Positions 9,600 to 15,315 of a stretch of 64,000 bases of DNA are shown here, in pieces. The stretch is from Cytophagaceae bacterium (GTDB lineage: Bacteria; Bacteroidota; Bacteroidia; Cytophagales; Spirosomataceae). The stretch lies in the NCBI GenBank assembly GCA_027491315.1, contig JAIXWL010000003.1:124001-188000 (forward strand). The letters run 5' to 3'. Within the stretch, counting starts at the first letter, position 1. Every line of letters starts with the position of its first letter. Under the pieces are notes generated by a model, which did no database searches, had not been told where the DNA came from, and worked only from the letters and a program-made list of their open reading frames with translations. The translations under genes were made by a program, and so were the position numbers.

Positions 9600-9971
9600 G
9601 GGGTCGACCGGTTTTGACAGCTTATGTCGGTCGGTGGTAAGCACGTCGGGAGTTGTAGGCATTTCCTGTTAAAAAAACCTTCGAATTATAACTGGCAATA
9701 CACAGTATGCCATGGCTGCTTAATCTTAGAGATTAATCAATTTGCCATCGTTCAGCCTTCTCCAAACTCTGCCGAGGAGGGCATCTGAGCGTCGACATGC
9801 AGAGTCGATAAGTTCGAATTTCTCTACGGACTTGTTAGTATCCAGAGGATAAGTTGAAAGTTTGGGTCTGATGTGAACCCGCTTTTGATCGAAAAATAAT
9901 CACAGCTAAACGTGTAGAAAGCTATTGTTCGCTAGGTTTGGACGAGGGTTCGAATCCCTCCGACTCCACCA
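9600..9971 (+). ncRNA. ssrA: tmRNA (transfer-messenger RNA)
   Basis: Rescues stalled ribosomes by acting first as tRNA-Ala and then as a short mRNA. The 5' GGGGTCG pairs with the 3' CGACTCC, giving the G3-U70 wobble recognised by AlaRS. The T arm is GAGGGTTCGAATCCCTC and CCA is encoded. The resume frame most likely begins at GGC (9694) and reads GNTQYAMAA before TAA at 9721-9723, matching the G...YA.AA tags of Bacteroidota. A strong hairpin terminator follows 33 bases later. Confidence 0.95.
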
Positions 9972-10003
9972 GGGTTTTATTCTTCCCAACAATTCAAGTA
10001 CTT

Positions 10004-10030
10004 GGCCCGGTTTTTAACCGGGCCTTTTTT
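10004..10030 (+). terminator. Intrinsic terminator of ssrA
   Basis: A perfect 9-bp stem (GGCCCGGTT / AACCGGGCC) with loop TTT is followed by six T. It lies 32 bases after the tmRNA CCA end. Confidence 0.88.
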
Positions 10031-10083
10031 AATCAAATATAAATGAAGGACTATTTATATATATTTGATAAAAAGTAATTTAT

Positions 10084-11391
10084 ATGACGAAAGTATGTGT
10101 AATTGGTGCTGGTCCTTCTGGAATAACTGCCTTGAAAAACATGATAGACCAAGGTCTAGATACGGTTTGTTATGAATTTAATACCCAAGTAGGAGGAAAC
10201 TGGATTTATAATGAGCAATTGGGGCACTCGAGTGTCTTCGAAACTACCCATATAATTAGTTCCAAAACCCTTTCACAATATGAAGACTTTAGCTTCGATG
10301 ATTTCGAAAAAGGGATGCCTGATTACCCTTCGCATAATCAATTAAGACGCTATTTTCAAGCTTATGCTGAACATTTTAATCTATACCCACACATTCAATT
10401 CCAAACTTTGGTAAAATCCTGCGAATTAGATGAAGCTAATAATTGGGTTATAAAAACAGAGAAGAACGGCATTGAAAAAACAGAACACTTTACCCATTTA
10501 GTTGTTTGCAATGGGCATCACTGGCTACCTAGAATGCCTCAATATCCAGGTGAGTTCACCGGTAAATTCATGCATTCACATGAATTCAAAAAGGCGGAAC
10601 CATTCAGAGATCAACGTATACTTGTCATAGGTGGCGGAAATTCAGCCTGCGACGTGGCGGTAGAAACATCTCGGGTGAGCAAGAAAACGAGCATTAGCTG
10701 GAGAAGAGGCTACCGAATTGTACCCAAATTTTTGTTTGGCAAACCGAGTGATGTAGTAGCATCTAAGTTGACATTTTTGCCCACTAAGTTGAAATTTTTC
10801 TTATCAGAATTATCCGTCAAAATAATCTCTGGTTCTAATAGGCACTATGGCCTTCAAGAGCCAGAACATGCCATCACAGGAACGCATCCCACCATCAACG
10901 AGGAACTATTGTACAAAGTAAGGCATGGCAAAGTATTCCCCAAAGGAGATATTGATCACTTTGAAGGGCAGCATGTCCATTTCAAGGATGGTACCGTGGA
11001 AGAGTTTGATACAATCATCGCTTGCACAGGCTATATTTTAGAACACCCATTTTTTCGAAAAGACTTCATAAATTATAGCGAGGGGGACGTCCCACTTTAC
11101 TTAAAAATGCTACATGAAAAATACGATAATCTATTTTTTGTAGGTATGTTTCAACCGCTTGGTTGCATTTGGCCAGGGGCTGAATTGCAAAGTAAGATAG
11201 CGGCAAGGGCCATTAAGGGACTTTGGCATAGACCCAAGAACATCGCCGAATTATGCCAAAGAGAAGTCACTCATCCTCATTTGCATCAAATAAAAACACC
11301 TCGGCATACGATTACGGTGGACTTCCATTTATTTGTCAAGGAACTGAAGAAACACCTTCCCTCAAATTACATCAGTAAATCCCCCGCTTAA
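10084..11391 (+). CDS. Flavin-containing monooxygenase (class B flavoprotein)
   Basis: FAD/NADPH monooxygenase of 435 residues. It has the FAD Rossmann motif GAGPSG (8-13), the FMO signature FTGKFMHSHEFK (F-x-G-x3-H-x3-F, about 158-169) and the NADPH Rossmann motif GGGNSA (about 182). An ATG motif-like stretch DTIIACTGYILEHPFF comes later. Such enzymes oxygenate soft nucleophiles (N or S) or perform Baeyer-Villiger oxidation of ketones. Stop and next start overlap as TAATG, so it is translationally coupled to an alpha/beta hydrolase. This pairing resembles Baeyer-Villiger monooxygenase plus esterase modules. The natural substrate is unknown. Confidence 0.88.
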   Translation: MTKVCVIGAGPSGITALKNMIDQGLDTVCYEFNTQVGGNWIYNEQLGHSSVFETTHIISSKTLSQYEDFSFDDFEKGMPDYPSHNQLRRYFQAYAEHFNLYPHIQFQTLVKSCELDEANNWVIKTEKNGIEKTEHFTHLVVCNGHHWLPRMPQYPGEFTGKFMHSHEFKKAEPFRDQRILVIGGGNSACDVAVETSRVSKKTSISWRRGYRIVPKFLFGKPSDVVASKLTFLPTKLKFFLSELSVKIISGSNRHYGLQEPEHAITGTHPTINEELLYKVRHGKVFPKGDIDHFEGQHVHFKDGTVEEFDTIIACTGYILEHPFFRKDFINYSEGDVPLYLKMLHEKYDNLFFVGMFQPLGCIWPGAELQSKIAARAIKGLWHRPKNIAELCQREVTHPHLHQIKTPRHTITVDFHLFVKELKKHLPSNYISKSPA

Positions 11392-12089
11392 TGAAAGAAA
11401 CGATAGTTTTTGTTCATGGTATGTGTCACGGATCTTGGTGCTGGGAGGAGCAATTTATCCCATATTTCGAGAAACTGGGTTATAATTGTATTGGGTTCAA
11501 TCTTCCTGGGCATGAAACAGAAGGAAGAACCAGGCCTATTTCCTATTCGCTTAGCGATTATGTCCAAGCACTTCGCAAGCAAGTAGAAAACTTACAGGAA
11601 CCTCCTATCATTGTTGGACATTCCATGGGTGGAATGATACTACAACATTTTCTAAAGACAAGATTATGTAAAAAGGCTGTTTTAATGTCATCGGTTCCTC
11701 CCTCGGGTGTGTTATTAGCCAGCCTTCGTGTGATATTTCGTTACCCGGGTGTGATACCCCATTTACTACTTGGAAATCTGTTAGGTGCCTTTAAAAAATA
11801 TCCCCATTTGATATTAAATAAGGCTACACTGACAGCGCGATATTCGCCTCGAATGTGTGCTGAATCATTTAGAGCGTATGTAGATTTGTTAATACCCATA
11901 TCACACAGATCTTCTTTACCTATATTAGTTTTAGGTGGTTCAAAAGATGGACTCATCACCGTTCGTGAATTTGAAAGCACTGCAAATCACTACCATGCTA
12001 AACTTAGCATCATAGAAGGCGGGTCACATGACCTAATGCTAGATGAAGATTATGAAAAATCAGCAAGAGCCATAGAAGAGTGGATTTGA
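11391..12089 (+). CDS. Alpha/beta hydrolase, coupled to the flavin monooxygenase
   Basis: 232-residue hydrolase of the alpha/beta fold. It has the oxyanion region FVHGMCHGSWCWEEQFIPYFEKLG, nucleophile elbow GHSMGGM with Ser78, a probable acid in GGSKDGLI and the C-terminal histidine in EGGSHDLMLDED. No signal peptide is present, so it is cytoplasmic. It shares the TAATG junction with the monooxygenase, and a linked function is likely: hydrolysing an ester or lactone made by that enzyme is a reasonable inference. Sequence alone does not separate esterase from C-C hydrolase or lactonase. Confidence 0.85.
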   Translation: MKETIVFVHGMCHGSWCWEEQFIPYFEKLGYNCIGFNLPGHETEGRTRPISYSLSDYVQALRKQVENLQEPPIIVGHSMGGMILQHFLKTRLCKKAVLMSSVPPSGVLLASLRVIFRYPGVIPHLLLGNLLGAFKKYPHLILNKATLTARYSPRMCAESFRAYVDLLIPISHRSSLPILVLGGSKDGLITVREFESTANHYHAKLSIIEGGSHDLMLDEDYEKSARAIEEWI

Positions 12090-12568
12090 TTATATTCCAT
12101 TTGACCAATACTTCTACTTTAAATGAGGATCAACTCCATTCTTACAAGACCAGCAAGATTTTTTTTCAGAAACTATTATATATTTAAACTGAGCTTTACA
12201 TATGTGAAAAACACCAAGAAAAAAAGACGCGGACTTCTATGTTTTGTTTAAGCAAAGAATACTTGCAAAGTCGAAAGACCTTACATGTTTTAATTATTAT
12301 TTAACATATTAAATCTAAGGTTAGCCTCAAAAAATATATTAGAATGAGCAATTTAATTGTTCAATGGAAACTATTGAACTTTTGGAAATTAAAATTCAAA
12401 AATAAAGGCTTTAGTTGTTACAATCTGAAATTTTTAGAGATAAACAATTTAAAATTTAAACTAGTGGTGTTCAGTAAGGCCCCACCGAAAGCCTAACTGT
12501 TGATTTTCAATTAATTAGATGTACTTTTAATTTAAAATAGGCCAACTTTATTAAAGATTTCAAATAAC
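12090..12568. other. AT-rich intergenic stretch, no gene recognised
   Basis: 479 bases between the hydrolase and the convergent zinc-module gene. No ORF of convincing length is seen, only scattered short frames. One perfect inverted repeat, GTTCAAT-N7-ATTGAAC, lies at 12359-12379 and has no T-run, so its role is unclear. Base composition is more AT-rich than the neighbouring housekeeping genes. Confidence 0.6.
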
Positions 12569-13903
12569 TTATTTTAAAAAATCTAAAATTAAGGTTTCAA
12601 TTTCTTGAGCAAAATAAGGTATTTCAATTAGGGTTATATTTGATTTTTCAAAAAATTTCCTTTTGATTAAATCCCTTTTAACAGTACTTAAAAATGCCTT
12701 TTCTCCTCCAAAAATTTCTAATGGTACATAATGTTGGATCCCATTATATTCAATAACTAAGTTTTGTGCTGGTAAATAAAAATCACATCTCAAATTATTT
12801 ATATACCTAAGACCTAAGAAAGTTTTTTGCTCCTCAAATTCAATATTATTTCTTTTTAAAATTTCTCTAATAATTGCTTCGCCTTTACTTGAATTACAAA
12901 TGGGGCAGCCAGAACCCTTGTAATGATTTACTGGCACTTGTAAAAATATCCCATGCCTAGAACAACTTATTTCAATTGGGGTAAATATATTAATGAAATT
13001 TTCCTCTTTGTAGGAATATTTATCTCCATGTTTGTTTTTTGCTCTTTTCTCAAAATCTTTAAAATTAATTTTTTGTCCTTCGTGAACTTCTTCAATAGCA
13101 CATTTCCTGCAACCTCTACCTGAATAATGTAGATATGGTGCTTGTTCAAACCAACCATGTTTTTCGCATTTTATTTTAGTCTTTGAGGTAACATTAACAT
13201 ATGATTTCTCATCATATTTATATCTGTCACCATGGGCCACTTTAAAAAGGTTTAAAACAACATTCCAAGCCTTCTGATTTGATTCACCTGCTTGTATATT
13301 TCCACAAATCGGACAACCTGACTTCATAGAAATATGAGAATGAGGGGTTTGACTATACTCTCCGTGAATTTTGCATCTAATTTTAATTTTAGTAGTGTAA
13401 TTTTTATAGGAATCTTTGAAATACTCATATTTATTTCCATGAATATCATTTGCTCTTTTTAAAAAGGTATTCCAGTCTAAGGAGATATTTTTATTAGCCA
13501 TTAACCTACCACATTTAGGGCAACCTTGTTTTCCCGCAATATGTGAATTCGGTTTCATTGAAAAAATCCCATGAATAGGGCAAATGATATCGATTTTTGT
13601 TTGGCTATTATGATAATTAGCCTGCTCGTAACTATACTTTTTTCCATGAATTGCTTCTGCTGAAAAAATGAATTGATCTTTGCTAAATCTTTGTGTTTTT
13701 GCCCTTGAATTTTGACCACATGAAGGACAATTTTGACCTTTAAGGTGATTATTTACGGATTGAAAAAAAATGCCATGCTTTGGGCAAATTATTTGTACTT
13801 TATCTTTTGTTTTTCTCAATTCTACTAATGAATAATCATACGTATTCCCGTGCTTTTCAAAAGCTCTTAATTTAAAATTTTCAATATTCAGTTTAATTCT
13901 CAT
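12569..13903 (-). CDS. Five-module CxxH/CxxC zinc-binding protein fused to a Vsr/DUF559-like nuclease domain
   Basis: 444 residues from the ATG at 13903 (ATG at 13930 is also possible; the track start at 13951 is TTG). Five copies of a module of about 60 residues occupy roughly 6-66, 74-136, 142-205, 212-274 and 280-340. Each reads F...A..HG.KY.Y...Y.N...KI.I.C..HG.F.Q.P..H..G..GCP.C, so each keeps CxxHG and CxxC as zinc ligands. The last 100 residues contain RCDFYLPAQNLVIEYNGIQHY, with D374 and E385 arranged as in PD-(D/E)XK nucleases of the Vsr/DUF559 group. The modules resemble phage and viral DUF723-type repeats thought to bind DNA. A site-specific or modification-sensitive endonuclease is inference. 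It stands alone in AT-rich DNA. Confidence 0.8.
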   Translation of the reverse strand: MRIKLNIENFKLRAFEKHGNTYDYSLVELRKTKDKVQIICPKHGIFFQSVNNHLKGQNCPSCGQNSRAKTQRFSKDQFIFSAEAIHGKKYSYEQANYHNSQTKIDIICPIHGIFSMKPNSHIAGKQGCPKCGRLMANKNISLDWNTFLKRANDIHGNKYEYFKDSYKNYTTKIKIRCKIHGEYSQTPHSHISMKSGCPICGNIQAGESNQKAWNVVLNLFKVAHGDRYKYDEKSYVNVTSKTKIKCEKHGWFEQAPYLHYSGRGCRKCAIEEVHEGQKINFKDFEKRAKNKHGDKYSYKEENFINIFTPIEISCSRHGIFLQVPVNHYKGSGCPICNSSKGEAIIREILKRNNIEFEEQKTFLGLRYINNLRCDFYLPAQNLVIEYNGIQHYVPLEIFGGEKAFLSTVKRDLIKRKFFEKSNITLIEIPYFAQEIETLILDFLK

Positions 13904-14304
13904 TCTAAAAATTGTTTTTAAAACAACCATATTCGATTTACAATCAACCAATTTTTAAATTAGTCTAGCATTCCAGTTTTGAATATATAAAAAACAAATG
14001 CTTGATAATTATCAAACAATAGTAATTTTTCAAAATAGTAAAATCAACAATTTACTTCTCCGTAAAGGTACTCTATCCATAACACTACCCAGAACTCGGC
14101 AAGCGTTTTTACATCCCCACCATTATATCGTCAAAACCTTTAAAATTTTTACTAAGGAATGGTACATCGCATGATTAATCTACCCGTGAGCTATTGAAAT
14201 ATAATAAATCACAAGTTGGGAAACCTTATTAACAATTGTTGGTTTTAGTTATGGTTAAGCTTTAATTAACCCAAATAAATTCGCCCTAATTAAAATTTAA
14301 TGGT
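13904..14304. other. AT-rich intergenic stretch, possible decayed coding remnant
   Basis: 401 bases without a supported gene. Most is AT-rich. The segment 14086-14177 is less so and reads as 30 sense codons (YPELGKRFYIP...), but it has a stop just upstream and no start, so it may be a relic of a lost gene or chance. No ssrA 3'-end duplicate, tRNA or transposase relic was found. Confidence 0.4.
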
Positions 14305-15315
14305 ATGAACATAATTCGTATACTCGTTTTTTTTCTTTGTCCAATCCTCATTTATGCGCAAACTGATACCACGGACACTTTCGACTATAATAATTTTGGA
14401 GATGCCGATGGGGTAAAAAGGTACTGTACGGTTAAAGTGTTAAATCAAACACCCCAACGAATCTTCCATATAGGCTTTGAGAACTATGGACATTTTCCCA
14501 TGCCAGGAGTTAGATTTAATGCAGCAGATTTACCCAGTACCATACATGTTGACCAAGTTAATGCCATACGCGCTCAGGTGAATATTCCCGTATTGTCAAC
14601 TAATAAAATTATTTGGCAAATGGGGTTCAACTATTGGGGAAGTAATTTTAAGGTAGCTAATCCAAACATTAATTCCTTTGCGAACTCATTAAACAACAAC
14701 ACTTTAGTTACTGCTGGAATAAATACAACGGTGTTTAAGCCATTGAATGAAAAGAATTTTATGATTTTTCAAGCAAGCTATGATGTAAATGGGCTTTTTA
14801 ATGGAACCAAGGATATAAGTTCGCAGGCCTTTACTACCAGTCTAACACTCATCTATGGTTGGAAAACATCTGAAAAAAATATGATAGGAACTGGCTTGGC
14901 AAGAACCTACCGTGCTGGTCAGCCTATTTTTGCACCCGCATTATTTTGGAATAAAACCTTCAATGAAAAATGGGGAATGGAACTTTTATTGCCTGCACGA
15001 GCTCATGTGAGATATAACATTTCTGTCTCCAACATATTACAAGCGGGATTCGAAGTAGAAGGGAATCAATATTGGGCGAATGTTCCAGGAATAGAAAATG
15101 TCTACCTACAGCGAGGGGAAATTAAGCCTCGGATTAGTTGGGATAAAAAGCTATTTGGCTTTCTTTGGCTTAACCTACAAGCAGGATTGCGCTACAATTT
15201 CCGCTTTGATGTAGCCAATGCTTATAATGCTAAGGAAGAAAGCCAAAAATATTTTACAAGTAATTTAGGAAACCCATTATTCTTCAATGTATCATTGAAT
15301 TTTGTATCTCCCTAA
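14305..15315 (+). CDS. Predicted outer-membrane beta-barrel protein (DUF6268-like)
   Basis: 336 residues with a signal peptide (MNIIRILVFFLCPILIYA, cut before QTDT). Alternating hydrophobic/polar strands run throughout, with aromatic-rich segments such as IIWQMGFNYWGSNF, MIFQASYDVNG, LTLIYGWKTSEKNMIG and LFWNKTFNEKWGMELLLPA, ending in FNVSLNFVSP. This pattern fits a 12- to 14-strand outer-membrane barrel and resembles DUF6268 proteins. Substrate and role are unknown. Its stop codon abuts that of the convergent DUF2147 gene. Confidence 0.7.
   Translation: MNIIRILVFFLCPILIYAQTDTTDTFDYNNFGDADGVKRYCTVKVLNQTPQRIFHIGFENYGHFPMPGVRFNAADLPSTIHVDQVNAIRAQVNIPVLSTNKIIWQMGFNYWGSNFKVANPNINSFANSLNNNTLVTAGINTTVFKPLNEKNFMIFQASYDVNGLFNGTKDISSQAFTTSLTLIYGWKTSEKNMIGTGLARTYRAGQPIFAPALFWNKTFNEKWGMELLLPARAHVRYNISVSNILQAGFEVEGNQYWANVPGIENVYLQRGEIKPRISWDKKLFGFLWLNLQAGLRYNFRFDVANAYNAKEESQKYFTSNLGNPLFFNVSLNFVSP

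Follow-up and report, generated by a model that had tools for sequence, protein, structure and literature searches.

What is an intact nuclease gene, fused to a series of zinc-finger-like modules, doing alone and without a partner on the chromosome of Aquirufa, a freshwater bacterium? The gene occupies positions 12569–13903 on the minus strand of the 64 000-nucleotide stretch of DNA that was analysed as a whole (the window). It is an open reading frame of 444 residues, counted from an ATG, with five zinc modules and a C-terminal nuclease domain. A longer version (12569–13951, minus strand), starting with a TTG at 13951, is the less likely alternative. As the copy in Aquirufa antheringensis can be aligned from the ATG of the window gene onward (MRIKLNIENF in the window, MRQKLNLINF in A. 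antheringensis), the ATG start is preferred, and the coordinates of the initial annotation are correct. The same annotation had placed the gene in an AT-rich island, which agrees with a GC content of 28–31% at the gene as opposed to about 38% around it. The gene is unique in its own genome, where no second copy was found. A Bacteroidota-type promoter motif is absent near the gene and the motif frequency is not above chance; sigma-70-like sites are no more numerous there than in shuffled sequences. We consider it probable that this is a free-standing homing endonuclease gene of the EDxHD (Vsr-like) type.

The five homologous modules follow each other with a period of 68–69 residues (spacings of 68, 69, 69 and 69), and each contains the patterns CxxHG and CxxC, with the HG motifs at positions 16, 84, 153, 222 and 291 of the protein. 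All are encoded on the minus strand: module 1 (residues 5–72, 13688–13891) with CPKH and CPSC, module 2 (residues 73–141, 13481–13687) with CPIH and CPKC, module 3 (residues 142–210, 13274–13480) with CKIH and CPIC, module 4 (residues 211–279, 13067–13273) with CEKH and CRKC, and module 5 (residues 280–338, 12890–13066) with CSRH and CPIC. Pairwise identity among the modules is 28–48%. The pattern C..H-(10–20)-C..C occurs five times in the protein and at most once per shuffle (mean 0.01) when the protein is shuffled 2000 times. Pfam analysis revealed matches to DUF723 (1.7e-10, 41.1 bits, cut-off 20.9; best stretch residues 11–63, in module 1) and DUF4379 (1.3e-7, 32.1 bits, cut-off 24.5; best stretch residues 168–201, in module 3), while CapR with 18 bits stayed under its cut-off. 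The repeat structure reported initially is thus confirmed by spacing, identity, shuffling and Pfam, and the protein has the tandem modules of 60–70 residues with two Cys/His pairs that characterize a CapR/DUF723/DUF4379 array. The related CapR domain is known from the literature as a zinc-finger domain that binds DNA and represses transcription. The ligand pattern, together with the published work on CapR, makes the modules putative zinc binders, and by analogy they probably read DNA, perhaps module by module, as initially proposed.

The C-terminal domain (residues 339–444, about 106 amino acids; 12572–12889, minus strand) contains the sequence CDFYLP...VIEYNGIQHY. Conserved residues are E342, D374, E385, Q390, H391, D411 and K414. 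Among these, E342, D374, H391 and D411 are found in 90–100% of the nuclease domains of 66 relatives; in a set of 28 sequences the first three are invariant and D411 is conserved in at least 90%. Their order, E, D, H, D, is that of the family name EDxHD. An AlphaFold2 model of the domain, computed from an alignment of the 66 nuclease domains, has a pLDDT of 97.1. Its top Foldseek match is the catalytic domain of I-Bth0305I (3r3p; probability 1.00, TM 0.66/0.70), and the mismatch endonuclease Vsr (1cw0, 1vsr) is found at the second and fourth positions. The full-length model gives the same first match. Because the Foldseek E-values are only about 0.01 and no solved structure is matched at the sequence level, the relationship to I-Bth0305I and Vsr must be a distant one, and family membership is assigned by predicted fold and motif. 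The initial description as a Vsr/DUF559-like nuclease holds for the motif and for the predicted Vsr-like core; Pfam, however, gives neither a Vsr nor a DUF559 match at this domain. Long-stretch matches were obtained with phrog_559 (E = 3e-105, ‘HNH endonuclease’), phrog_9084 (E = 2e-28, ‘homing endonuclease’) and phrog_681, families annotated as endonuclease, HNH endonuclease or homing endonuclease. Phage annotations that use the term ‘HNH’ mislead here, since the predicted fold is Vsr-like and the residues stand in EDxHD order.

Relatives of the gene are held by 1067 of 50 697 phage records, none with more than 60% identity. Among records of Flavobacterium psychrophilum phages, 16 have a two-module relative immediately after the gene for the major head protein and 13 lack it. 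In an occupied/empty pair from these phages, for which one empty record was compared base by base, the flanks are 100% and 99.9% identical and the sequences start to differ at the head gene's stop codon. Phage FpV4 carries a relative of 260 residues; the site is empty in phage FPSV-D18, where an intergenic stretch of about 58 bp follows the major head gene. The pattern of presence and absence recurs in Mimasvirus phages: Cronobacter phage GAP32 has a three-module relative which Pectobacterium phage CBB lacks, and the flanks of the two are 89–90% identical. Such a pattern, shown for these phage relatives, is as expected of free-standing homing endonucleases. A further candidate pair, Klebsiella phage RCIP0047 (L155:3013–4779) and phage PCCM_KpPS2 (L158), was dropped, because its nuclease end gives no more than a partial match (E = 1.5e-5). 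The RCIP0047 gene has five modules and a different, partly matching nuclease end (‘Hef-like’ in related records); some phages carry a gene of this type next to the one for the major head protein, and PCCM_KpPS2 has none.

In relatives taken from 69 viral contigs and 30 genome loci, the number of modules ahead of the nuclease ranges from two to six, and the genes lie in unrelated neighbourhoods; a constant number of modules in an unrelated conserved operon, one of the findings initially named as refuting, was not seen. In several copies on genome contigs, mostly of Bacillota, the nuclease is flanked by modules at both ends, with as many as five before and seven after it (L012:5920–8526, L010, L011, L016, L018, L021, L023 and L027). 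Modules of the same kind are also joined to other proteins in genomes of the same order. A 1296-residue protein (L179:3776–7666, genome G791), encoded among unrelated genes, combines about seven near-identical modules with a ResIII/DEAD helicase and a C-terminal Methyltransf_8 domain. Two proteins from genomes of the same order and family carry five (L180:2934–4298) and three (L181:3122–4081) modules in front of a GIY-YIG-like C-terminus, with a T5orf172 match in the former.

The tree of nuclease domains is based on 108 columns and its bootstrap did not settle, and only well-supported forks were used. One of these (support 97/91) unites the window copy with four others, namely that of A. antheringensis (66% identity), those of two Flavobacteriia/Flavobacteriales metagenome-assembled genomes (MAGs) and that of one Bacteroidetes MAG. 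All five lie on Bacteroidota contigs, with no phage copy inside the clade and no phage genes alongside. Their module counts are 5, 5, 6, 6 and 4. The nuclease gene is solitary in each, its neighbours being ordinary chromosomal genes which differ from locus to locus, and no flanking sequence past the open reading frame is common to the chromosomal copies. Between the two Aquirufa copies dN is 0.25 and dS is 2.9; as the latter is saturated, the exact ratio is not reliable, but it is far below 1. Judged by these substitutions, purifying selection has acted on the gene, at any rate from the time when it and the A. antheringensis copy diverged.

The window gene is situated in a region that varies within the genus. 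Its left edge is the tmRNA gene (9600–9971, plus strand), and the interval from there to the gene for a DUF6268 protein is filled by an insertion of 4.3 kb (9972–14291) which holds a gene for a flavin-containing monooxygenase (FMO; 10084–11391), an alpha/beta hydrolase gene (11391–12089) and the nuclease gene, the last 2.6 kb past the 3′ end of the tmRNA gene. Three congeners (G160, G115 and G122) have only 123–285 bp between the tmRNA and DUF6268 genes and lack the insertion. A fourth (G154) agrees as far as its contig, which begins near the tmRNA end, shows. In yet another genome (G203) other DNA lies in front of the DUF6268 gene, so that the stretch is variable in Aquirufa. The FMO and hydrolase genes are found at other places in congeners. 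No second copy of the tmRNA 3′ end, as an att repeat, is present at the far side of the insertion. Since 2.2 kb around the nuclease gene have no match in congeners, the window copy has no definable gene-precise empty site and no definable target. As two unrelated genes share the insertion, movement of the nuclease gene may have been due to something other than its own activity. No Rfam group I or II intron was detected around the gene, at E-values up to 1 in 11300–14600.

The named neighbours encode alanine dehydrogenase, an Lrp regulator, the FMO, the alpha/beta hydrolase, DUF6268 and DUF2147 proteins and a 3-keto-disaccharide hydrolase. There is no cognate methyltransferase among them, in line with the initial annotation. 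Its statement that no mobile-element genes are nearby is valid for transposases and phage genes, whereas the gene does sit in a genus-variable insertion. The A. antheringensis copy is located elsewhere, directly beyond a tRNA-Lys gene; G122 matches this locus at 95% identity as far as the end of the tRNA gene, and carries no copy at that place. The copy of the Bacteroidetes MAG (L005) is 0.75 kb from a tRNA-Arg gene. Three of the five clade copies are thus near tRNA or tmRNA genes, a count that is suggestive only.

Homing, restriction and anti-phage activity had all been proposed for the gene. The homing reading is well supported, because the predicted fold, the conserved EDxHD residues, the presence and absence in phages and the varying modules and neighbourhoods all point to it; restriction and anti-phage activity gain nothing from the lack of a methyltransferase and from weak PADLOC matches. 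Cleavage is predicted from fold and residues, and its target is putative. According to the mechanism that we propose, the five treble-clef-like modules would most likely lie end to end along the DNA and provide specificity, as CapR and the array suggest. The EDxHD domain would cut near the site by metal-dependent chemistry as in I-Bth0305I and Vsr. Once the break was repaired from an allele with the gene, the empty allele would carry it too, a step suggested by the gene-precise presence and absence shown for the phage relatives. The window bacterium would have acquired its copy by horizontal transfer, within the variable DNA that follows the tmRNA gene; since then it has been kept intact under purifying selection.

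That last step could also be read as a sign of domestication. A nuclease used by the cell itself, for example a single-gene anti-phage or anti-plasmid enzyme cutting a long specific site on invading DNA, would be expected to stay under strong purifying selection and could form a purely chromosomal lineage such as the supported Bacteroidota clade. Genes gained horizontally collect at positions like those beside the tmRNA, tRNA-Lys and tRNA-Arg genes, and PADLOC reports weak matches to candidate defence nucleases (E = 2e-4 to 7e-4). These matches, however, span only about 50 residues of the nuclease core. Further, neither a partner gene nor defence neighbours were seen, and the distribution is very patchy: full-length copies occur in 2 of 38 Aquirufa genomes, and relatives at E < 1e-40 in four of 391 genomes of the order and one of 396 of the phylum. 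We regard domestication as unlikely. Unlikely as well is the idea that the clade on Bacteroidota contigs is a chromosome-adapted lineage, whose four to six modules would read a long site module by module, and whose members would settle beside tRNA and tmRNA genes or serve the host against incoming DNA.

The gene might, on the other hand, have no present role at all, being a phage-derived homing endonuclease that was brought in with other DNA and is now without a target. The large reservoir in phages could have supplied it, and the FMO and hydrolase genes, located elsewhere in congeners, are in the same insertion. Without a use, a gene should decay with time, yet the catalytic and zinc residues and the open reading frame are intact and dN/dS is far below 1, which makes passive carriage quite improbable. 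The preferred reading remains that of a free-standing homing endonuclease gene.

Its architecture has already been published. In phage group II introns, three to five CapR/DUF4379/DUF723-like modules of about 60 residues are followed by a domain of about 100 residues distantly related to EDxHD/Vsr; the authors propose a DNA-binding role for the modules and call the architecture a large unrecognized outgroup of EDxHD homing endonucleases, with thousands of UniProt hits (PMC12350094; NAR 2025). Repeated CapR/DUF723 zinc fingers in varying number have been reported together with T5orf172 (GIY-YIG) homing endonucleases, and their modularity was proposed to help changes of specificity (PMC10448857; 2023). 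The window gene is a chromosomal example and no new system, and will be expected by specialists who know both papers. What we add is a supported clade of free-standing copies on Bacteroidota contigs, with the sites and module counts of its members, together with the occupied/empty phage pairs; the clade and the clean one of these pairs are useful. Free-standing genes with four to six modules show that the modular EDxHD design of phage introns occurs in chromosomes as well, and the same array is joined to effectors as different as GIY-YIG-like nucleases and a helicase-methyltransferase. If every module recognizes a few bases of its own, modular DNA readers could naturally be drawn from this family. 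Because Flavobacterium phages differ at a single site in having or lacking a two-module member, a target and a recognition rule can be sought there directly.

Among solved structures the nearest fold is that of I-Bth0305I (3r3p), which has the same order of E, D, H and D but no detectable sequence match, and its DNA-binding region is of another kind. Vsr, the second-best fold match, repairs T:G mismatches and is not known to have a module array. In the T5orf172 (GIY-YIG) enzymes the same kind of repeated module is joined to a nuclease of a different fold. The enzymes of PMC12350094 share both modules and nuclease with the window gene; theirs are located inside phage introns, whereas the window gene stands free in a chromosome.
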